A DNA stretch of 46,824 nucleotides from Actinomycetota bacterium (lineage in GTDB: Bacteria; Actinomycetota; Actinomycetes; S36-B12; CAIYMF01), in NCBI GenBank assembly GCA_026393115.1, contig JAPLAU010000020.1:1-46824 (forward strand), written 5' to 3'. Made by a program: the position numbers and the translations under genes. Every line of letters starts with the position of its first letter. Position 1 is the stretch's first letter. Positions 1-10,204 of the stretch are shown here, one piece after another. Below the pieces are notes generated by a model that saw nothing but the letters and a program-made list of their open reading frames with translations, did not search any database and was not told the DNA's origin.

Positions 1-139
1 CGAGACCAAGTACAACCGCCGCCGACGCCAACGCGCCCTGGGCAAACTCACCCCGGTCGAGTTTGAGATGATCTACCAAGCCGCAGACGCGGCGTAGGAA
101 CCATCAACCCCGAGTGTCAACCAAACCGGGGGCAGACCC
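1..139 (+). mobile_element. Right end of an IS3-family insertion sequence
   Basis: The window begins inside an insertion sequence. A transposase C-terminus reads through to a TAG stop at 95-97, followed by a short tail that includes TGTCAACCAAACCGGGGGCA (115-134), which has the look of a terminal inverted repeat. The element seems to end near 138-139, because from about 140 on the minus strand the sequence reads as the body of a different, truncated gene. The other end lies outside the window, so the exact boundary and any target duplication cannot be confirmed here. Confidence 0.75.
2..97 (+). CDS. IS3-family transposase, C-terminal 31 residues (partial)
   Basis: This is the tail of an integrase-core (rve) transposase, entering from the left edge in frame from base 2. 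The visible residues include YNRRRRQRALGKLTPVEFE, the typical end of IS3-family OrfB: the YN..RR(H/Q) stretch, an LG, and a TP.EFE motif. The catalytic DDE residues are upstream of the window. It belongs to the element whose right terminus lies at about 115-139 and which truncates the next gene. Confidence 0.8.
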   Translation, partial: ETKYNRRRRQRALGKLTPVEFEMIYQAADAA

Positions 140-403
140 AAACGCCACCGACTCCGAGTAAGGAATGAACCACATCGTTCCGCCCACGATGGCAGCGGTG
201 AAGAAGACCGAGCAGCCAACGACCAGGCCCATACCGAGACGCGAATGCAGTGGGGGATGAGGAATCTTTCCCAAGATGGCGCGAGCACGACGGAAGCGTT
301 TGGGTGACGGCTCAGCAGGCGCCACTGCCCCAATAGACGATGAATGATCGGTTGATCCAGTCCCGGCACCGGGTGCGTCGCCTTCTGGTTCATCCATTGT
401 CAT
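104..403 (-). pseudogene. Membrane-anchored protein truncated by the IS3 element
   Basis: This is the first gene downstream of ccmF, 68 bp after it on the same strand. It starts at ATG 403 or ATG 397; the second has better spacing from AGGTG. The product has an acidic, Ser/Ala/Pro-rich N-terminus (about 45 residues), a basic stretch (KRFRRARAILGK), and one membrane segment at about residues 57-80. It then runs into IS sequence and stops: the last dozen residues are encoded by the IS terminus. The original C-terminus is lost or lies beyond the element. Its place at the end of a ccm operon would fit a CcmG/CcmH-type factor or a NapC/NrfH-like anchored cytochrome, but no motif survives to decide. 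Confidence 0.6.
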
Positions 404-471: not shown

Positions 472-3313
472 TCAACTCGCCGACGGCGATGGTGACTTCG
501 TCGCCAAGGAATCCAGATGCTGCTGAACTGACTTGGCTAATTCGGACTTCGGATCGATCCGCACAACCTCCAGCCACTGGGCCTTCGCCTTGGCTTCCTG
601 CGGGGGCTTCTGCGACAGATACAAGAACCCCAAGTCGTAGTGAGCCTCGGCGTTGTTGGGGTTGACGGCGATTGCCTTCTCCCATGCTGCTTGCGCTGTG
701 GCAACGTCACCCGCGTTGTAAGCAGCCGCACCGTAGGCAACCCACGCGGAGTCCTTCTTGGGGTCTACTTCCACGGACTTCTTATAGAAAGTCTGCGCAT
801 TCTTGAAGTCTCCGGAATTGAAGTAGAGATCACCCAACGCGAGAAGCGACGCGTAGTCCTTGGGGTTCGCCGCGATCTTCTGCATTAACGCCCCCACCGC
901 AGCTTGATCGACCGGCGTCGATGAAGGCGATGGTGAACTACTGGTGGGAGTGCCGCTGAAACCAGGCACCGCCGATCCGCGTGAATTACCGAGCGCATAG
1001 GCGCCAAGGAGCAGCGCGGCAACAGCCACCACCGCCCCGATGACATAGAGACCGGTGGGTCGCTGCGTGGCTTCGCCGGGTTCTACAGCGGCCGACGGTG
1101 GTTTCTGTCCTCCCGATGGCTTCACCGGTGCTGCGGCGGCCTGAGGCGACTGAACAACCTCAGTGGTCACCTTGCTGCGCGCCTGCTCGAGAAATGCGAC
1201 AACGTCGTCTTGTTTCGCATCCGCGCCACTCTTGGCCTTGGCCAACTCCTCTGCGCGGGAGACCAAATCAGCGACGGGGTCACCTGCAACCGCAGACGCA
1301 GTGCCCGTGCGTGCAGCGACGATCGCCGCATCCAGTAGAGCTGCCAGTTCGTCGTCGGTGGCCGACATGGTTGCTTCCTCCGCTTGGTCGTCGCGGCGAC
1401 GTCGCCGCGGAATGGCAAACAAGACGCCACCAAGTGCGAGCAGACTGCCGCCTACCCAAATCCAGATGACGCCTGGGTTGTCGTAAACAGTGAGCACTGC
1501 AAACTCAGAACCCACCGTGCCGTCAGCTTCGTCAACCACCACGTAGATGTCGCGGAAGGCATTTGACAGAATGCCGACCTGCGCGTGCAGTTGTTCAGCG
1601 TTGGTGAACTGCTCGAGTTTGGGTTCGACTGTGCCGAGCGGATTACCGCTCTCGCTCGCAAGCTGAACCACGGCAGTGAACGAATCGCGATCTGGGAAGC
1701 GTTGAACATCAACGGTTTTGAGAGTTACTGACTGTCCAGCAATTGTTTCGGTCTTGCCCAGCGCGATCTTGCCCTGACCCTGCACTTGGAATGCAACGTT
1801 GATGGCCACAGCGGACAGTAGGACGACCAAACCCACGTGACCCACGTATGGACCTGAGGCACGAATGGCGCCCCACACCGGAGATTGGTCGTTTTCGTAT
1901 GCATCGCGCAGCCTCGGTCGCGCTTTATGAATCACTGTCAAGACCGAGAGCACGGCAAGCGTGATGACGATCGCGACGCCGGGGTTAGCTCCATGCGTCA
2001 GCACCATGATGCCGCCGAACACCACGACCGCGACGAGAACCCGCATCACGATTTCGCGTGCCCGATTCTCAACGTCCTGACCGGGCAGAAGAGGTGATAT
2101 CGCGAACAGCAGCAGAATCAACAGTGCTAACGGAGTGATCACCACGCGGAAGAAGCCCGGAGTGACCGCAATTTCCTGACCGGAAATCAACCGCGCGAAC
2201 AGCGGGTAGAGCGTGCCCCAGAGAACGACAACGGTGATGATGACGAGAAGCGCCAGCAGAATCAGTTGTCCGAGCCAGCCATGACCTCGCCGTTCTGGGT
2301 CACGCAGTCGCAACATCGGAAGCCGCCACACCACGAGCGCCCCGCAGGCGATCACAATCAACGAAATTGCGGTGCCCAAAATGGCACCCATGTTCGACTC
2401 ACCGAAGGCGTGCACCGACGAGATCACACCGGAGCGAGTGAGGAAGGTGCCGAAGAGAACCAAGTTGAAAGTGGTCATCACTGTGATGACCGAGGCAAGA
2501 CGCAACCGAGGTAGCCCGCGATAGGTCATCCCTGTGTGCAGCAAGATCGTGCCGGTGAGCCACGGCAGCAGTGAGGCATTCTCAACGGGGTCCCACGCCC
2601 AATAACCACCCCAGCCGAGCTCGGCGTACGCCCAACGAGCGCCGAGGACAATTCCGGCCGTGAGCGCAACCCACGAGATCACGTTCCAACGGTTGGCAAC
2701 CTTGACCCACGGGCCGCTGGTCTGGCCGGCCAGCAACGCGCCGACCACGATGGCAATCGGAATCGTGTACAGCACATACCCGGCGTACAGAGCGAGAGGG
2801 TGAATGATCTGCAGCGGGTCTTGCAGAAGTGGGTTGAGACCCATGCCGTCTGTTGTGATCTGCGTGGCAGCCGCGAAAGGGGGTAGAGACGAATGCCACC
2901 AGCCCGCTGAAAAGTCCGGTCACCACAGCGAATACCGCCGTGGTGTACGTCGACATTTCCCAGCCCTTGATGCGGTTCTGGTAGGTGATCCACGCAGCGC
3001 AAAGCGAGGCTAACCACGCCCACAGCAGTAGTGATCCCCCCTGACCGGCCCACATCGCACCCACGCGGTAGAAGGTGCTCAGGGTTGACGAGGTGTACTC
3101 ACCGACGTACTGAAGTGAAAAGTCACCGATGATCAGGGCCAGCTGCAGGACTGCCACGGCAACGCTGAGCGCTAGTGCTGCAGCGTAGGTACCGTACTCA
3201 GCACCCTTGATGCGACCAGGGGACGTGGAGCGCGCCGCCACCACCGACACGACGATCGTGTAGATAACTGCTGCAATCGCAACGAGGACAGCGACGCTCC
3301 CGATGGCACCCAT
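472..3313 (-). CDS. ccmF: CcmF heme lyase fused to a CcmI-like TPR domain; interrupted by one frameshift
   Basis: CcmF is the heme-ligating core of System I cytochrome c maturation, joining heme to apocytochromes on the outer face of the membrane. The N-terminal part (about 146 residues from ATG 3313) has the WAGQGGSLLLWAW motif and many membrane segments. The frame then changes by one base in the homopolymer AAAGGGGG at 2876-2883, and the rest continues in another frame with the tryptophan-rich motif WGGYWAWDPVENASLLPW. Removing one base gives about 648 CcmF residues, normal for the family. The frame continues without a stop into about 297 further residues: an acidic/Ala-rich segment, a membrane helix and three TPR-like repeats ending in Ser/Pro. 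These resemble CcmI (CycH). The frameshift may be a sequencing error in the homopolymer or a real lesion. It starts 2 nt after ccmD. Confidence 0.85.
1366..1381 (-). promoter_or_regulatory. Internal ribosome binding site and ATG inside the ccmF fusion
   Basis: On the minus strand GGAGG (1381-1377) lies 8 nt before an in-frame ATG (1368-1366) that begins MSATDDELAALL. This falls exactly where normal CcmF length ends and the CcmI-like half begins. A separate 297-residue CcmI-like protein could therefore be made from 472-1368 as well as the fusion. Translation from this site is inferred, not shown. Confidence 0.5.
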
Positions 3314-3315
3314 GA

Positions 3316-3465
3316 TCAGTTGCCACTTCCCTTGACTTTGCGCAACGTCGTCTCAAGACGCGATGCCTTCTGCTTGAGGTAAATCCAGTAACCGCCGTAG
3401 AGCACCACAGCGAGTCCGTATCCGACGGCCAACATCACCGGCCCGTTGACTTCAGCGCCACTCAT
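3316..3465 (-). CDS. ccmD: CcmD-like small membrane protein (49 aa)
   Basis: CcmD is a small single-span protein that helps release holo-CcmE from the CcmABC complex. This 49-residue product has one membrane helix (about residues 10-30, VMLAVGYGLAVVLYGGYWIY) followed by a basic tail (KQKASRLETTLRKVKG), the usual CcmD layout. It starts at ATG 3465, overlapping the ccmC stop as ATGA, and ends 2 nt before ccmF, so it is translationally coupled inside the ccm operon. A longer reading of the frame exists, but the coupling to ccmC supports this start. The call rests on size, topology and position, because CcmD sequences are poorly conserved. Confidence 0.75.
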   Translation of the reverse strand: MSGAEVNGPVMLAVGYGLAVVLYGGYWIYLKQKASRLETTLRKVKGSGN

Positions 3466-4187
3466 TTCGCTACCTCCCGCTTGATCTGCTGTTCGAGGTC
3501 GTTCACGTTGAATCGAAGGCGCACGAAGTACACATACACGAGCGTCATTGCGACGAGTCCCACCGTGAGCGCCACGATCATCATTCCGGGCAACTGAGGG
3601 CCTTGTTCGGTGATGATGACCTGTTCGGGATGCAGGGTGCGCCACCACTTCACCGACAGGTAGACGATCGGCACGTCAAGGAAAGCGACGATGCCCAGCA
3701 CCGCTGAGAAGCGCGCCTTGCGCGAAGGATCGGGAACATAGGCACGCAGTGCCACGTAAGCCAGGTACAACAGCCACAACACCAACACCGATGTCAGTCG
3801 CGGTTCCCAGGTCCAGAACACACCCCAGATGGCCTTGCCCCACAACATTCCGGTGACAAGCACCACGGTGGTGAAAAGCAGACCTACCTCCGCCGAAGCG
3901 CCCGCATACGCATCCCAGCGCATATTGCGGCTCACGAGGAATGCGATAGAGCCGGCAAAGACCACGAAGAAGGCAAGCGCGGCAATCCACGCGGACGCTA
4001 CATGCACGTAGAAGATGCGCTGAACAGATCCTTGGATGCTGTCTTCAGGTGCATAGAAGAACGATGCGTATGCGAATGCAACGATCGCCACGGCAGTTGC
4101 GATACCGAGCCACTTCGTCGTTCGTTGGGCGGACGAGTGCGCCGCCGTCGGTTCAGCGACCGACTCTGGGGCTGCCTGCTGGGTCAT
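3462..4187 (-). CDS. ccmC: CcmC heme-handling membrane protein
   Basis: CcmC presents heme to the chaperone CcmE on the outer side of the membrane. The 241-residue product has about six membrane segments and the tryptophan-rich heme-handling motif at IWGVFWTWEPRLTSVLVLW, with a His in an early outer loop (FYVHVASAW). Length and motif match the family. The start chosen is ATG 4187, just downstream of the ccmAB stop (5 nt gap); an upstream in-frame extension would overlap ccmAB and carries no membrane-protein features. It overlaps ccmD by ATGA. Confidence 0.9.
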   Translation of the reverse strand: MTQQAAPESVAEPTAAHSSAQRTTKWLGIATAVAIVAFAYASFFYAPEDSIQGSVQRIFYVHVASAWIAALAFFVVFAGSIAFLVSRNMRWDAYAGASAEVGLLFTTVVLVTGMLWGKAIWGVFWTWEPRLTSVLVLWLLYLAYVALRAYVPDPSRKARFSAVLGIVAFLDVPIVYLSVKWWRTLHPEQVIITEQGPQLPGMMIVALTVGLVAMTLVYVYFVRLRFNVNDLEQQIKREVAK

Positions 4188-4192
4188 GTCAT

Positions 4193-5647
4193 TCACTCCT
4201 CGATCACGTAACTGAACATGGCGATCGCTGCGAGCAGCACCATGATGTCGAACCCGGCCAGGATGCCGAGCCATTGCCACACCGATGTCGAATCTCCGGC
4301 GCCGAGTGCAAGGCGCGTCAACTCAACTGATCCCACCATCAGCGGAATCACTACGGGCATCACCAGAATCGGCAGCATCGACTCCCCCAGTCGAGAACCG
4401 ACGGCAATACCCGAGAACAAACTGGCCACCGTTACCAATCCCAGAGTGCCCAGTGCCACCGTGCCAATCAGGGCCAAGGGATTCGAGCCCTGCCCATCGC
4501 TGGTCATCATCACCAAGAACAACGGAATGATGACCACATCAACGACCGCCATCAGAACCAGGCTCGCCAGTGCCTTTCCGATGAATACTGATTCGCGCGG
4601 AGCAGGCGAGAGTAAGAGTCCCTCGATACCGCGGTCGGCCGATTCGCGAGCCATAGTGCGGCCAACACCGAGCAGCACCGCAAACAGGATGCTGATCCAC
4701 AGCACGCCGGTGGCGGCTCCTGCTGACGCGGCCGCGCCTGTGGGCATGGTGAAGCTCGCGGTCACGAGCACCGCGAGAGCGAACAATCCCGCCGAGCCGA
4801 TGACGTCGCGGGTACGAAATTCAACCCGCAGATCCTTGGCGGCGATCGCCAGCGCTGCGCGAAAGAGTTTGGGAGGGGTCGTCAGCGTTGGCCGCGTGAA
4901 GGCAGGCGCTTGGACCGGAGCCGGAGCTATCTCACGGGTTGGAAGGGGCAGTTCACGATCAACGGCCACGGTGCGGTTTTCGAGCAAGATGAGCCGACGC
5001 GGGCCGGCCTCAGCAACGGAGCGATCATGCGTGGTCATGACGACGGTGCGCCCCGAGGCTACAAGCGCGTCGAGCACCGTGAGCAATCGATCGGACGACT
5101 CTTCATCAAGCCCCGTGAACGGCTCGTCAAGCAACACAATGCGTGGGCCATGAAGCAACGCCCGGGCCAGGGTGAGCCGCTGGCGATTACCTCTCGAAAG
5201 TACTCCTGCGGGTCGATCGAGGATGCCGTCGAGGTCGAGCAGTTCGGACAGCGCCGCGATTGCGCTGGCGGGATCGGTCACCCCGAACAGTCGCGCGTGG
5301 AATTCTAGGTTTTCGCGACCGGTGAGGTCGGGGTAGAGGAGGGACTCGTGCGATACGAAACCCACGCGACGACGAAGTCCAGGGCCGGCGCGACGCAGAT
5401 CGACTCCGGCGATGGAGACTGACCCCTCCGTCGGAACCGAAAGCCCCGCACACATGCGCAGGAGCGTGGTTTTCCCCACACCATTGGAACCCATGAGGGC
5501 GACGTACTCGCCCTCCTCAATGGTGAGTGACACATTGGAAAGGACTCGCGTCCAGCCGAACTCCTTACCGAGCCCCTCGACCACGAGGGTGGTGGGGACT
5601 GCCGATGGCGAGCGGCTTTCGACCTCGCGAGACGCAAGCGCGGTCAT
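4193..5647 (-). CDS. ccmA: CcmA-CcmB fusion: heme-exporter-type ABC ATPase plus permease
   Basis: CcmA and CcmB form the ABC transporter that drives release of heme-loaded CcmE. Here both are one 484-residue polypeptide. The N-terminal half is an ATPase with Walker A GSNGVGKTT, signature LSRGNRQRLTLARALL and Walker B RIVLLDEPFTGLD, plus the switch His in MTTHD. After a Pro-rich linker comes a permease with about six membrane segments beginning AKDLRVEFRTRD, a CcmB-type start, and including the CcmB-like stretch ESADRGIEGLLLSPAPRES. The start at ATG 5647 overlaps the ccmE stop as TGATG. An in-frame extension of 19 residues upstream would overlap ccmE and is unlikely. Confidence 0.9.
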   Translation of the reverse strand: MTALASREVESRSPSAVPTTLVVEGLGKEFGWTRVLSNVSLTIEEGEYVALMGSNGVGKTTLLRMCAGLSVPTEGSVSIAGVDLRRAGPGLRRRVGFVSHESLLYPDLTGRENLEFHARLFGVTDPASAIAALSELLDLDGILDRPAGVLSRGNRQRLTLARALLHGPRIVLLDEPFTGLDEESSDRLLTVLDALVASGRTVVMTTHDRSVAEAGPRRLILLENRTVAVDRELPLPTREIAPAPVQAPAFTRPTLTTPPKLFRAALAIAAKDLRVEFRTRDVIGSAGLFALAVLVTASFTMPTGAAASAGAATGVLWISILFAVLLGVGRTMARESADRGIEGLLLSPAPRESVFIGKALASLVLMAVVDVVIIPLFLVMMTSDGQGSNPLALIGTVALGTLGLVTVASLFSGIAVGSRLGESMLPILVMPVVIPLMVGSVELTRLALGAGDSTSVWQWLGILAGFDIMVLLAAIAMFSYVIEE

Positions 5648-6051
5648 CACGAACCATCCGTTGCCGCCGCCGCAGGGCTGGCCGTCTGGAACTTGGAAGG
5701 GCACTTGGCAAGCAAGTTGGTGGCAACAAAGGTGCCGTCAGTTCCAAGTGAGCCCTCGGCCACCATCTGCGTTCCTGGCTTCGAGGCAGTGGTGAGAGCC
5801 GTGGTTGCGCCGCCCCGATAGATAACCGGCACCGACGTCTTACCGTCAGTGATCTTGAATACGGTCGCGCCTGCGGCGTCTCGCCCTACCGAGCTGATGA
5901 CCAGTTGCCCAGCAAGGCGCACAGGCTCACTCGAATGGGCAGAGACGACCTCCGTGGGTGTGCGGTAGTACAACACAGAGCCGCCCACCATGCTGATGGC
6001 CGCGAATCCCAGTCCCACAGCCACAACAAGGCCGAGGAAGACCCACAGCAC
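5647..6051 (-). CDS. ccmE: CcmE heme chaperone, CxxxF variant
   Basis: CcmE is a membrane-anchored periplasmic-side chaperone that binds heme covalently and hands it to CcmF. The product has an N-terminal anchor (about residues 3-26), the family motif YYRTPTEV, and an OB-fold-like beta-rich body. Classical CcmE binds heme through a His in an HxxxY motif; this protein instead has CPSKF near its C-terminus (C117, F121), so it belongs to the Cys-type group, with Phe where Tyr is usual. The start GTG 6051 is uncertain: there is no clear ribosome binding site, and an ATG at 6095 that would give a basic N-terminus (MRRIRRSVK) is out of frame by one base, so a second indel is possible. It is the first gene of the leftward ccm operon. 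Confidence 0.85.
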   Translation of the reverse strand: MLWVFLGLVVAVGLGFAAISMVGGSVLYYRTPTEVVSAHSSEPVRLAGQLVISSVGRDAAGATVFKITDGKTSVPVIYRGGATTALTTASKPGTQMVAEGSLGTDGTFVATNLLAKCPSKFQTASPAAAATDGS

Positions 6052-6075
6052 AATTCGCGAACGGCGGGCTTGACA
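6049..6075 (+). promoter_or_regulatory. Cramped divergent start region between ccmE and the TPR operon
   Basis: CACAAT (6049-6054) could be a -10 box for the rightward operon, with TTG 6070 as start. The same TTG opens a perfect -35-like TTGACA (6070-6075). Only 18 bp separate the two proposed start codons (6051 and 6070), so any promoter for either gene must overlap the coding sequence of the other. The assignments are tentative. Confidence 0.3.
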
Positions 6076-7002
6076 CTCCGGCGGATCCTGCGCATTTTAA
6101 TTATCTGCGCCGTCGCTCTGCTCGCCGTGTTCGCAGTGGTCTTTTATCTTGGTCAGCGAGCAAACTCGGGACCGACCATCCCCGATCGCGCCGTGACAGC
6201 CGCGGAACAAGCTGTGCGCGATGACCCCAACAACGTCAATGCCCGACTTGGCCTCGCCTCGGCATATCTGGCGAGTAACCGAAAAGACGAAGCGCTCACC
6301 CAGTACCGAACGATTCTCGAAGCAGAGCCCGCGAATCGCGATGCGCTCCTTGCCTCCGGCAAACTGGCTTACCAATCCAAGGACTTCGCAACCGCCCGCG
6401 ACCTCTTCGGCCGCATGCTCAAAGTGTCAGGCGGCGAGGAGTTTTCTGCCGCCGATCCGCAGATCGAGGAAGCCGAGTACTACTTCGGCCTGACCGAACT
6501 CGATTCGGGAAACGTGCCCGCCGCGATCAAACATCTGCAGGCAGCCCTAAGAATCGACAAGACCGATGCCGACGCGTGGAACACCCTCGCTGGCGCACAG
6601 GTCAAACAGGGCGACTATAAGTCGGCAGTCGCGTCGTACCAACAAGCAGTGCGATTCATTCCTTCGGGATGGTGCGAGCCCTACAACGGCATGGTCGTTG
6701 CTTACACGAGTCTCAAGGACACCGCCGGTATCGACTATGCCCAAGGGATGGCGTCCTTCTGCGATGGAGACAGCAAGGCTGGCATGGAATCACTTGCGAA
6801 GGTCACCACAGGGCCCCTCGCTGTTCCCGCCATGCTGGGTTTGGGTCTGGCCGCCGAGTCACAAGACGATGTCGCTGTTGCGGCCGGGTGGTTCAAGAAG
6901 GTACTCAAGGCTGACCCCACCAACATCACCGCCCGAACAGCGCTCGCCCGTCTCGGCGCCACCGCCGCGGCCTCACCGTCGGCCTCGGGAGGTAAGTCAT
7001 GA
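6070..7002 (+). CDS. Membrane-anchored TPR protein of the cytochrome operon
   Basis: The 310-residue product has a basic N-terminus and one membrane segment (about residues 8-27, ILIICAVALLAVFAVVFYL). A TPR array follows on the outer side: clear repeats begin near NVNARLGLASAYLASNRKDEA, NRDALLASGKLAYQSKDFAT and TDADAWNTLAGAQVKQGDYK. TPR proteins of this shape (CcmI, NrfG) hold apocytochromes for heme attachment. It is first in a three-gene operon ending with an octaheme cytochrome, so a role as apocytochrome chaperone or complex scaffold is inferred. The TTG start is chosen because it precedes the charged residues of the anchor; GTG 6127 would delete most of it. It overlaps the next gene by ATGA. 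Confidence 0.75.
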   Translation: MTLRRILRILIICAVALLAVFAVVFYLGQRANSGPTIPDRAVTAAEQAVRDDPNNVNARLGLASAYLASNRKDEALTQYRTILEAEPANRDALLASGKLAYQSKDFATARDLFGRMLKVSGGEEFSAADPQIEEAEYYFGLTELDSGNVPAAIKHLQAALRIDKTDADAWNTLAGAQVKQGDYKSAVASYQQAVRFIPSGWCEPYNGMVVAYTSLKDTAGIDYAQGMASFCDGDSKAGMESLAKVTTGPLAVPAMLGLGLAAESQDDVAVAAGWFKKVLKADPTNITARTALARLGATAAASPSASGGKS

Positions 7003-8063
7003 GCGACGATGTCGCGGTCACCGAAAGCCTCGAACCAGACCAAGAAGTTGTCGAAGGCGCGACAGTTGCTGAAGGCGCGACAGTTGCCGAAGCAGGCATG
7101 AGCCGCCGCACGCTCATCATCTTGATTTGCGTGGCGGCTGGCGTTCTCGCACTCCTCGGTTTGGCGCTCGCGTGGTACGTAATTACTGGCAAGTCCCCCA
7201 CCCAGATCCCTGGGCTGAGTAAGGAGATCCCCCCGCACTACTCGCGCGCTATCTATGACGTCAGCGCGCCCCTCGGTGTTGCCCTTGACGAGAAGAACGA
7301 CCGGGTCTACATCACGCAGTCGTCGGGCGATCGCAAGGTCGCGATCTTCACCCTCGATGGCACCCGCGTCGGAAATCTGCCAACACCTGGCAATGCCAAG
7401 GTGGCGCACATGCCGATTTACGTGGCAGTCGATCCGCTCACCCAAGACGTGTTCGTGACTGACCGCGCCGCCGCAGCGCTCTACCAATACGACTCGTCCG
7501 GCAATTACCTGCGCACCGTTATTCCGCGCGGAGTTGCCAAGTGGAACCCAATGGCGCTGTGTTTCGACACCAGCGGATTGCTCTACGTCTCCGACGTGAG
7601 CGGCAAGATCCCCGTGATCTACCAGATGAGGACCGACGGCGAAGTCATCCGCAAACTCGGCGCGAAAGACAAGCTCTCTTTTGTTAACGGCTTAGTCGTT
7701 CAATCCAACGGAACCCTCGCGGTTGCCGATTCGAACAACGGCCGCGTGCTCATCTACGGCGCCTCGCCTGAGGCCGAAGGCGGACTTGCTCGCGGCAAGG
7801 CTGACGCTCCTCTCGGCCTTCCCCGCGGTCTCGCGGTTGATGACCGAGAGCGGCTCTACGTCGTCGATACCGTCAACCAAATAGTTCGGGTGTACCTGCC
7901 CGCCGATGACGGAACGCCGATTCCGGTCTACGCGTTCTCCTTTGGAGGGCAAGGAACTGCGGACGGAGCGTTCGAGTATCCCAATGGGATAGCCGTGACG
8001 AGTCGCAACCAGCTCTTCATCACAGATCGAGGAAACAATCGTGTGCAGGTCTGGAGTTACTGA
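6999..8063 (+). CDS. Membrane-anchored NHL-repeat beta-propeller protein
   Basis: The 354-residue protein has an acidic N-terminus of about 35 residues, a membrane segment at about 39-62, and then repeated NHL-type blades. Examples are PLGVALDEKNDRVYITQSSG, LPRGLAVDDRERLYVVDTVN and YPNGIAVTSRNQLFITDRGN, each with the PxGIAV...G.LYV.D..N.R pattern; about six blades fit. The start is ATG 6999 with GGGAGG 7 nt upstream, overlapping the TPR stop. The propeller would lie outside the membrane. No catalytic residues are evident, so a binding or scaffolding role for the cytochrome encoded next is inferred. An 18-bp direct repeat near 7055-7090 duplicates EGATVA. Confidence 0.85.
   Translation: MSDDVAVTESLEPDQEVVEGATVAEGATVAEAGMSRRTLIILICVAAGVLALLGLALAWYVITGKSPTQIPGLSKEIPPHYSRAIYDVSAPLGVALDEKNDRVYITQSSGDRKVAIFTLDGTRVGNLPTPGNAKVAHMPIYVAVDPLTQDVFVTDRAAAALYQYDSSGNYLRTVIPRGVAKWNPMALCFDTSGLLYVSDVSGKIPVIYQMRTDGEVIRKLGAKDKLSFVNGLVVQSNGTLAVADSNNGRVLIYGASPEAEGGLARGKADAPLGLPRGLAVDDRERLYVVDTVNQIVRVYLPADDGTPIPVYAFSFGGQGTADGAFEYPNGIAVTSRNQLFITDRGNNRVQVWSY
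7055..7090 (+). repeat. 18-bp tandem duplication in the NHL gene
   Basis: Two adjacent copies of an 18-base unit containing GGCGCGACAGTTGC encode EGATVA-EGATVA in the cytoplasmic N-terminus of the propeller protein. They differ at one wobble base. The unit is in frame, so copy-number change would not break the gene. Confidence 0.7.
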
Positions 8064-10204
8064 TGAACACGTGCAGGGCACGCGAAGACGCACCTTCGCG
8101 AGGTCCTGCACGCCAATTCATGACCGCACTTGGCGTGGTCGCTCTCACTCTGGCAACCCTTGTGGGCGCCTCAGCCCTGAGCGCACCTACCTCAGCCATC
8201 GGCATTAGAACCGACGACTCGTCACCCAGTCCCACCACCTCCGTCGCACCTTCGCCCCTCATCAGCCCCGCCGCCGAACCCGTGCCGGTTGGGCAGATCG
8301 ATCCCGCGACACTCAGCCTCGCAACTGTTGCGGGCAGCGCTGTCACCCCCACAGTCGGATTCACGGCACCGTCGCTCACGGGAACCCTCGTCTACACCGT
8401 CAGTCCCGAACTTCCGATCGGACTCGCACTCGACGCAATCTCCGGGGCGATTAGTGGAACACCTGTCTACGCTCAGGCTGCTACGGACTACACCGTCACA
8501 GGCACCAGCGAATCCGGCTCGGCGACTGGCCAGGTGAGCATCGCCGTCACTCCCGTTGTCGCCCCGGCGACATTCACCGTGCTGGCCGAAAGGCGCACTC
8601 CACTCACGCCGACGTCAGGACTTTTCGCGATCGGGTTCAACGGTCCGGTCGCCTTCAGCACCTCGCCCGCATTGCCTCAGGGATTGAAACTTGACTCACG
8701 CAACGGATCAATCTCGGGAACTCCCACCACTGCGCTACTCCCGATGACGAGCACAATCACAGCCACGGACGGCACTTTCAGTGCCACCTCACAGGTCACG
8801 ATTTCGGTGTCGTGCGGCACGGGTCAGGGGGTCGCCCCCACCTGCCGCATGGTTCCTCTGACCAAATCGGGAGCAAATCCCAACGCTGCCGCCGGTTTCT
8901 CACTGCTGGCCTCAACGCCCGACAACATTCACGGCCCATTCACCACCACGACCGACTCATGTGCCGCGTGCCACCGCAACCACTCTGACCCCGCCACCGA
9001 GTGGGCACCGGAAGTTGATCCGGTCGCCACCCTGTGCTTTACCTGCCACGACGGAACTGGCGCCAGCCCCAACGTCTACAACGAGTACTACGCGGGTACC
9101 AACCCCGCTGGAACACCTCGTTACACGAATGTTGCGGCCACGCGATCGATCTACACGCACGATGCACTGGTGGCCACTAACCATGTTGGCCCGACTGTCG
9201 ACTCAGAAGGCACGAGTTACATCGTCAACGAATTCCAGAACACGCTGAACCGGCACGCGGAATGCACCGACTGTCACAATCCGCACGATGCAACGACTGC
9301 CGCCTCAACCCAGACGAGCGCCGGCTGGACTGTCTCGGGCCGCACCCACGCCGCGGCGGGAGTGTCGGTGGTCAACGGCGCCGCCGGCGCCACCCCGACC
9401 TACACCCTGCTGGGCGCCAAAGCGACTCCCATGACCCTCGAGTACCAACTGTGCTTCAAGTGTCACTCGGGCTACACGACGCTGCCGAGTAACACCGGCT
9501 TCCCGAGTTCGCAGTGGTACCTCGACAAGGGCGTCGAACTGAACCCGGCGAACCTGTCGACTCACCCCATTGAAGGTGCCGGCTCGAACAGCACGGCGGC
9601 CATGACTGCCTCGCTCGCAGGAACGTCACCCTACAAACTATGGACATTCACCACCGGTTCCACCATTCGCTGCACCAATTGTCATGCCGGCGGCACGATC
9701 ACGGCTGTGGGTGGAGCGGGACAAAACTCTCAACCGCATGCCGCCGCCAACCGCGGAATCCTCCTGTTGCCCTACCGCGATCGGGTGCTGCGAAGTACTG
9801 CAGCACCGAATTACGCGGCCGCCGATTTCGCCCTCTGCTACGGCTGTCACACCGACATTCCGTTCAAACAGCAAACCGCCACTGCTACTAACTTTGCCGA
9901 TCACGGACTTCACGTGAGTTCCATGACCGGATCGGGCAGTGGAGGGGCTAGCACGAACATTGACACCGCCGGCGCCGGAGCTGGCACGGCCCTGTGCGCC
10001 GAATGTCATTACCGCCTGCACTCAACCCAAACAATGCTGGGTTCTCAGACACTCAGCGGCACTCGACTGGTGAACTTCGCGCCGAATGTCCAGCCGGTAA
10101 GCGTCGCAGGAGTGCCCACCATCAAGTGGAGTTCAACCTCAACCGGACACGGAACATGCACCCTGTTGTGCCACGGTAAGACTCACACGAACATGAGCTA
10201 TTAA
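8063..10204 (+). CDS. Secreted octaheme c-type cytochrome with two Ig-like domains
   Basis: The 713-residue protein starts at ATG 8063, overlapping the NHL stop (TGATG). A signal sequence lies at about residues 20-46, followed by a Ser/Thr/Pro linker. Two putative Ig domains of the He_PIG type follow: LPIGLALDAISGAISGTP (about 117-134) and LPQGLKLDSRNGSISGTP (about 204-221). The C-terminal 420 residues hold heme motifs at 300 CAACH, 325 CFTCH, 401 CTDCH (as CHNPH, the doubled-CXXCH signature), 464 CFKCH, 537 CTNCH, 592 CYGCH, 645 CAECH, and a CX3CH at 699 (CTLLCH). There are 22 His in all, enough for bis-His ligation of eight hemes. The protein is likely extracellular or cell-wall-facing and moves electrons; its partner and substrate are unknown. 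The heme count makes the adjacent ccm genes its likely maturation system. Confidence 0.9.
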   Translation: MNTCRAREDAPSRGPARQFMTALGVVALTLATLVGASALSAPTSAIGIRTDDSSPSPTTSVAPSPLISPAAEPVPVGQIDPATLSLATVAGSAVTPTVGFTAPSLTGTLVYTVSPELPIGLALDAISGAISGTPVYAQAATDYTVTGTSESGSATGQVSIAVTPVVAPATFTVLAERRTPLTPTSGLFAIGFNGPVAFSTSPALPQGLKLDSRNGSISGTPTTALLPMTSTITATDGTFSATSQVTISVSCGTGQGVAPTCRMVPLTKSGANPNAAAGFSLLASTPDNIHGPFTTTTDSCAACHRNHSDPATEWAPEVDPVATLCFTCHDGTGASPNVYNEYYAGTNPAGTPRYTNVAATRSIYTHDALVATNHVGPTVDSEGTSYIVNEFQNTLNRHAECTDCHNPHDATTAASTQTSAGWTVSGRTHAAAGVSVVNGAAGATPTYTLLGAKATPMTLEYQLCFKCHSGYTTLPSNTGFPSSQWYLDKGVELNPANLSTHPIEGAGSNSTAAMTASLAGTSPYKLWTFTTGSTIRCTNCHAGGTITAVGGAGQNSQPHAAANRGILLLPYRDRVLRSTAAPNYAAADFALCYGCHTDIPFKQQTATATNFADHGLHVSSMTGSGSGGASTNIDTAGAGAGTALCAECHYRLHSTQTMLGSQTLSGTRLVNFAPNVQPVSVAGVPTIKWSSTSTGHGTCTLLCHGKTHTNMSY

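Follow-up and report, generated by a model that had tools for sequence, protein, structure and literature searches.

What does a multiheme cytochrome do that begins with two Ig-like domains and ends in an irregular CX3CH heme site? The question is raised by a gene on contig JAPLAU010000020.1 of an Actinomycetota bacterium (assembly GCA_026393115.1), the 46,824-nucleotide stretch analysed here and called the window, which is one contig of a 3.5 Mb source genome that is 95% complete. Our sequence comparisons indicate that the heme domain of this octaheme protein, and not its Ig part, is the real unit, and that it belongs to a broad family of octahemes that is frequently linked to operons of the nanowire type. 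A role in extracellular electron transfer (EET) appears likely.

A reading of the window made without database searches (the sequence-only reading) had described seven CXXCH motifs, a final CTLLCH and two He_PIG domains in one chain, and both a motif scan and Pfam bear this out. The open reading frame (ORF) is laid out as follows.

8063..10204, + strand: octaheme cytochrome ORF of 713 aa, with a signal-peptide-like start, two He_PIG domains, seven CXXCH motifs and a C-terminal CX3CH
8285..8809, + strand: two He_PIG domains (PF05345), about residues 75-249, with the best stretch at 164-249 and an approximate start of the first domain
8915..10201, + strand: conserved octaheme module, residues 285-713
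8921..9085, + strand: N-terminal two-heme segment of the module, similar to a hexaheme N-terminus and proposed as the docking segment
8960..8974, + strand: heme motif 1, CAACH, residue 300
9035..9049, + strand: heme motif 2, CFTCH, residue 325
9263..9277, + strand: heme motif 3, CTDCH, residue 401
9452..9466, + strand: heme motif 4, CFKCH, residue 464
9671..9685, + strand: heme motif 5, CTNCH, residue 537
9836..9850, + strand: heme motif 6, CYGCH, residue 592
9995..10009, + strand: heme motif 7, CAECH, residue 645
10157..10174, + strand: heme motif 8, CTLLCH (CX3CH), residue 699

Pfam matched He_PIG at 4.2e-15 in two stretches (56.4 bits, cut-off 24) and Paired_CXXCH_1 (PF09699) at 1.3e-16 in three (60.4 bits, cut-off 20.6). 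The MtrC-MtrF domain PF22113 was marginal (30.2 bits, cut-off 30), and the NCBIfam decaheme models, applied as an OmcA/MtrC test, scored far under their cut-offs. Sixteen of the 19 Cys lie within heme motifs, all 16 Cys of the heme domain belong to CXXCH or CX3CH, and all 22 His lie inside that domain. Among window frames of at least 60 codons, just one besides the octaheme ORF has any CXXCH, a single one. Because CXXCH is nearly absent from the other frames, and because CX3CH closes the series of heme motifs in 72 of 80 related loci, the motif set stands above chance.

A contig scan across genomes turned up 435 loci, and the 80 are the best of these; L052 and L057 among them are near-duplicates, and L060 and L066 come from a single genome. 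Gene calls followed a longest-ORF rule of our own, and distances and score bars (40 bits for the hexaheme described below) were likewise our choice. CX3CH lies at most 45 residues from the C-terminus in 68 loci, which agrees with its placement at the extreme C-terminus in the sequence-only reading. Four members have extensions after it (L052, L057, L061 and L065, with PKD in L052 and L061), L066 and L079 run off their contigs, and L115 is split with CX3CH on the second piece. By the submitters' titles the family spans Actinobacteria, Chloroflexi, Archangium and other Deltaproteobacteria, Eisenbacteria, Planctomycetota, Verrucomicrobia, Spirochaetes and others. Seven CXXCH plus one CX3CH is the smallest complete form among the members; others carry 8 to 15, or 34, CXXCH before CX3CH. 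Two cytochromes, L073:6317-11176 and L109:6329-11176 (1616-1620 aa), have 34 CXXCH, two CX3CH and five CX4CH, with the same CX3CH module at the end.

Alignments A4 and A5 were built from rows picked for seven CXXCH and CX3CH, leaving out partial loci (L064, L066, L079, L108), L076, the near-copy L057, members with other heme counts and members lacking CX3CH (L094, L098, L105, L116 and others). CX3CH is invariant in these alignments because of that choice; the free count is the 72 of 80 given above. Across 38 aligned rows, one of which is the window protein, conservation extends to 20 of that protein's 22 His, eight in motifs and 12 elsewhere; the least conserved of these columns holds His in 34 of 38 rows and the least occupied in 33 of 33. 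The expectation that 22 His are enough for eight bis-His hemes stands on these columns, which offer 12 conserved non-motif His for eight hemes.

It might be argued that CX3CH binds no heme and is a disulfide or metal site of a heptaheme protein, given that CXXCH is usual and CX3CH irregular, and that it is missing from five closed ORFs among the 80 loci (L089, L094 with CX4CH instead, L098, L105 and L116). We regard this as very improbable, in view of its place as last heme motif in most loci, of a further His four residues past it in 36 of the 38 rows (chosen to hold CX3CH), and of a published description of CX3CH in ImcH and some CymA proteins as a putative heme motif of atypical form (PMC6295460). 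We infer from this pattern that heme is attached at CX3CH. Heme counts from CXXCH alone would then miss one site in this octaheme family.

Closer to the window, 25 of 99 genomes of the order gave a match (the window's own included). Besides the own genome, five matched in the heme domain (G001, G013, G015, G017 and G031), each with a module of seven CXXCH and CX3CH, and G017 has a further copy that is truncated where its contig stops; 19 genomes matched the Ig part only. In the phylum, 49 of 396 genomes matched (own included), many of them over short stretches, and G449 and G278 were the only non-own genomes with near-full-module matches above 190 bits. A scan of viral contigs recovered no relative. 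In a rough tree, with bootstrap values not settled and much of the remainder weakly resolved, the window grouped with L037 at 100/100.

The Ig part behaves differently from the heme domain. He_PIG was seen together with this heme domain elsewhere only in G001 (L037), of the same genus; the two octaheme proteins are 72% alike over their whole length, Ig part included, and among the family and multiheme proteins compared only L037 matches the He_PIG region (69%). Among relatives of the same order, G015 and G017 consist of the module with little or nothing added, G031 has a long N-terminus of another kind and the start of G013 is unclear. Across 27 members with seven CXXCH and CX3CH, between 67 and 1289 residues of the ORF precede the first heme, and in other family proteins the N-terminus contains a subtilase or an OmcE-like part, or no domain that can be recognised. 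The Ig part had been proposed to anchor the heme chain; as a general rule this is not supported, since Pfam found He_PIG in none of 18 other family proteins scanned and N-terminal length varies. An Ig-driven function was rejected, the Ig part not being conserved.

In three Chloroflexi loci (L077:7427-11161, L082:6164-11176 and L096:6656-11161) a Peptidase_S8 domain lies upstream of the module in one chain. A processing role is possible for it, by analogy with OmcZ, whose processing is the work of a subtilisin-like protease (PMC9473688). This brings in the idea that the octaheme polymerises by itself once a protease has removed its Ig part, as OmcZ does after OzpA. OmcZ of Geobacter is likewise an octaheme in which one heme site is irregular, and it shares the tandem Ig domains and the link to a subtilase (PMC9473688); the protease in the Chloroflexi chains fits. 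Its irregular motif is at heme 1 (a 14-residue loop) and its Ig domains are C-terminal, whereas in the window protein the irregular site is heme 8 and the Ig domains are N-terminal. OmcZ, entries for which are presumably in the PDB, was absent from the octaheme matches at E<=1 (profile A1) and at E<=0.01 (A5). The fusions and synteny described below also involve OmcE- or OmcS-like proteins, and we consider an OmcZ-like self-polymer improbable.

The setting of the module can be read from its neighbours in relatives. The close group comprises 30 loci (L037-L066), 21 with at least 3 kb upstream and 13 with at least 8.5 kb downstream. A hexaheme gene lies within 3 kb upstream in 19 of the 21 and an NHL gene within 6 kb in 20; the hexaheme was missed in L037 and L064 (frame broken) and the NHL gene in L064. 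In G001, the hexaheme gene is found on the far side of the ccm genes. A decaheme is in the locus in 10 of the 13 and absent from L053, L054 and L062. Among 12 hand-chosen genomes, the hexaheme was present in all five with the octaheme and in none of seven without. Pfam on ten neighbours in L031, L035, L049 and L090 returned TPR, cupredoxin, NapC/NirT, DsbD_TM, ResB, Cytochrom_C_asm, AhpC-TSA and CcmF. Thirty-eight of the 50 distant loci have 3 kb upstream; 17 of these have a hexaheme at the low 40-bit bar, 24 an NHL gene, nine an OmcE-like tetraheme somewhere in the locus and nine a fusion. In L075, L078, L107, L111 and L112, a protein of 1050-1273 aa with 42 CXXCH is encoded about 3 kb downstream of the hexaheme and CX3CH cytochrome genes.

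The partners resemble known electron-transfer proteins. With hexaheme profile A6 (18 rows) the top PDB match was OmcS (6ef8, 5.9e-10; 3.4e-14 with an earlier profile), which gives moderate support to an OmcS-like hexaheme. A tetraheme, L091:4711-5478, matched 7tfs at 6.9e-30, an entry labelled 'Cytochrome c' in the PDB table and which we take to be OmcE. The relatives' decaheme has a NapC/NirT domain by Pfam and NrfH as best PDB match; an ImcH homolog with one transmembrane segment described in I. calvum (PMC6295460) is presumably this decaheme.

Part of the same setting is found in the window, where the octaheme ATG overlaps the stop of the NHL gene, which itself overlaps a TPR gene.

6999..8063, + strand: NHL beta-propeller protein with an N-terminal transmembrane segment, overlapping the octaheme start codon; the same partner is found in relatives
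5905..7002, + strand: TPR protein, first of the three-gene run, start codon uncertain
5647..6051, - strand: CcmE-type heme chaperone
4193..5704, - strand: CcmA-CcmB in one ORF (503 aa, equal length in G001)
3462..4280, - strand: CcmC-type protein
472..3313, - strand: CcmF with a C-terminal TPR part, in two overlapping frames (2582-3313 and 472-2844)
134..403, - strand: decaheme NapC/NirT-type cytochrome, N-terminal 90 residues, 73% to that of G001, truncated close to the contig end

An exported octaheme chain in an extracellular electron-transfer setting is supported by the ccm and NHL genes of the window and by the OmcS-like and NapC/NirT-type partners in relatives, in line with the heme chain outside the cell wall pictured in the sequence-only reading. 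The ccmF gene is one 944-aa ORF in G001 and two frames in the window, which may reflect either a sequence error or a true frameshift. The decaheme frame starts at 403 and stops after 99 residues, where the G001 relative has 571 aa; the truncation is probably an effect of the assembly edge. Contamination was rejected in view of the same synteny in G001. In L049, genes that Pfam identifies as ResB and Cytochrom_C_asm, of System II type, take the place of the window's ccm genes (System I type), and L032 and L043 resemble L049 by gene size and number of transmembrane segments only. The CX3CH family thus seems to occur with either maturation system.

In some distant loci the module is joined to a wire-type protein. 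We found ten OmcE-octaheme fusions (L087, L091, L095, L106, L110, L113, L115, which is split, and second ORFs in L081, L088 and L093), and a separate OmcE-like tetraheme is encoded in nine of these ten loci, L087 being the exception. The fusion at L091:9290-11065 has 11 CXXCH and CX3CH, and its residues 15-208 match positions 12-231 of the 232 of 7tfs at 2.3e-27. With hhalign, the C-terminal modules of the nine unsplit fusions aligned to octaheme profile A5 at 100% over 334 columns, and the fusion modules aligned to the hexaheme N-terminus at 98.7%. In L088, L110 and L115 the tetraheme gene comes first, followed by those for small heme proteins, for a protein of 671-684 aa, for an NHL protein and for the fusion. 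The large protein upstream of the NHL gene ends in Phe in L081, L087, L088, L093, L110 and L115 and not in L091, L106 and L113; none was called in L095. Pfam gave no match for five of these large proteins, and our guess is an outer-membrane barrel. L091 is titled a Bifidobacterium breve metagenome-assembled genome, a label that is doubtful; it carries the OmcE-like tetraheme, NHL proteins and the fusion.

The module also resembles the start of the hexaheme. Compared as profiles, octaheme and hexaheme gave one aligned stretch, in which the first 54 octaheme-module columns lie on the hexaheme N-terminus at 99.4%; the decaheme profile against the octaheme gave 13-15%. Heme motifs alone can inflate profile scores, and heme Cys and His were therefore masked in both query and database; self-matches of the CX3CH family were dropped, and best matches labelled OTHER were octaheme-family or hexaheme ORFs. 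All 36 octaheme first-pair segments then matched a hexaheme (E 4.9e-10 to 0.017), with the best hexaheme match at its first heme pair for 35 of the 36 (L055 fell outside the criterion), and none of 13 decahemes matched at E<=1. Within the segment, module His 23 is kept in 36 of 37 rows and the preceding His 6 in 33 of 33. In OmcS, the inter-subunit His is the second His of the first CXXCHXXH, the place that module His 23 takes in the octaheme. In OmcS and OmcE filaments, a His of one subunit ligates a heme of the next (PMC9473688).

These observations suggest how the octaheme may work. In a proposal that we infer from sequence comparison, the octaheme would be secreted to the surface and the hexaheme would polymerise; electrons would pass from quinol to the membrane decaheme, with its NapC/NirT start, then to the OmcS-like hexaheme polymer, and between that polymer and the octaheme. 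The first two octaheme hemes would mimic the hexaheme N-terminal segment and so let the protein dock in place of the next protomer, at the filament face that exposes the C-terminal hemes of the last protomer. The remaining hemes, with the CX3CH heme last, would halt polymer growth and pass electrons on; the sequence-only reading, too, had suggested that the terminal heme could be an electron exit. OmcE-octaheme fusions, protomer then module, would put the module at that same face, and an end-piece role is suggested because protomer-like docking and fusion order agree on this position. The Ig domains, replaced elsewhere by other N-termini or a C-terminal PKD, would be an exchangeable anchor, adhesin or processing part. 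A base position would fit the barrel-like neighbour of the fusion loci, and an adhesive tip would fit the Ig or otherwise variable N-termini.

Given a role in EET, we lean slightly towards the octaheme being a filament end piece. Taken whole, the claim that it is a secreted EET cytochrome docking at one end of an OmcS/OmcE-type filament, as a cap or adaptor, has in our judgement a little less than an even chance. We also offer, tentatively, a broader claim: across Gram-positive as well as Gram-negative organisms, the CX3CH module would be the end piece still lacking for nanowires of the OmcS/OmcE type, as a cap at the tip or an adaptor at the base, joined to a protomer in OmcE systems and imitating the docking segment of the protomer N-terminus in OmcS-like ones. 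A rival account makes the octaheme a monomeric surface relay or terminal reductase that carries electrons from the decaheme or hexaheme to minerals or shuttles, its Ig part holding it in the wall, with no docking. A secreted octaheme with an adhesin-like domain and EET-type operon partners in relatives suits that account, and the hexaheme polymer is itself unproven; the fusion to a whole OmcE-like domain and the likeness to the hexaheme N-terminus are left unexplained by it, and we think it rather unlikely.

Several results weigh against the filament-end proposal. The hexaheme profile run on the window's own assembly matched the octaheme itself and no hexaheme, and the contig ends inside the decaheme. 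In 12 of the 38 distant loci, Archangium and other myxobacterial loci included, no upstream hexaheme or tetraheme was seen, though one of them, L087, encodes a fusion, and in L101 there are hexaheme-like genes on the downstream side. The OmcS match of the hexaheme is only modestly above those to 6r2q (MtrA, 3.9e-8) and octaheme nitrite reductase (2.4e-7); 6r2q is the Mtr complex (PMC9473688), although the PDB table labels it otherwise. The AlphaFold model of the hexaheme reached a pLDDT of 35. The background of profile comparison is high, with 96.8% for decaheme against hexaheme, 97.0% for octaheme against tetraheme and 98.7% for tetraheme against hexaheme. Against the OmcE-like tetraheme, the N-terminus of the octaheme falls on columns 74-220 and not on the tetraheme N-terminus, so that an N-terminal copy shows with the hexaheme only. 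Common descent alone may explain the shared segments. The AlphaFold model of the octaheme module, made without hemes, is middling (pLDDT 68.3, pTM 0.73, best at about residues 131-260), and neither Foldseek nor VIA-align 2 found a match for it in the PDB. This missing fold match says little, because such servers find no relatives of OmcS and OmcE beyond close homologs (PMC9473688).

If the filament-end proposal holds, it bears on a gap in the literature: in a structural paper on nanowires, a legend leaves possible tip proteins out of consideration (PMC9473688). A module found in several phyla, and fused to or resembling wire protomers, makes the question of how a nanowire starts or ends testable. 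The module further suggests that an EET operon of the nanowire type exists in Actinobacteria probably related to the Nanopelagicales, a group of small planktonic cells, and in Intrasporangium calvum, which is represented in the set by a named strain and whose locus L043 has genes for TPR, NHL, hexaheme, octaheme and decaheme proteins.

How does the octaheme compare with described systems? As a whole it is no member of the OmcS or OmcE families. Profile A5 matched 7tfs at 6.9e-4 (positions 5-41) and 6ef8 at 4.6e-3 (91-163), and of OmcS and OmcE profile A1 retrieved only 7tfs, at 0.027; the link is that operon partners in relatives are OmcS-like or OmcE-like and that the two-heme segment at the start of the module is common to octaheme and hexaheme. 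A CXXCK or other catalytic heme site marks the octaheme reductases OTR, ONR and HAO. These were rejected, as the protein has no CXXCK and the octaheme nitrite reductase 8rv0 was not among the A5 matches at E<=0.01. In open full-text literature, as far as it was accessible, we found no description of the CX3CH module, the OmcE fusion or a nanowire end piece.

By description, the OetABI/OmcX/OmcS-like clusters of syntrophic sulfate reducers (PMC10553843) likewise combine filament-type with other multiheme cytochromes; they have porin conduits, and CX3CH is absent from the accessible main text. The Uet cluster of Tenderiales and Gallionella consists of the undecaheme UetJ, tetraheme UetA, trihemes UetDEG, NHL proteins UetHI and porin UetC (PMC10734462). 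By its description it resembles L115, L110 and L088, which combine an OmcE-like tetraheme and small heme proteins with the 671-684 aa protein that Pfam does not match, NHL proteins and a fusion with CX3CH at its end, in two pieces in L115. With CX3CH and CX4CH counted, UetJ candidates are tabled with 11 and 12 motifs (PMC10734462). By analogy UetJ would be of the fusion type, with a twelfth heme that its name leaves out. The window differs from the Uet-like loci in its Ig domains, in having no OmcE-like part and in having no neighbour of about 670 aa among the genes scanned, whereas by profile alignment the C-terminal module of those loci is of the same type as that of the window protein.

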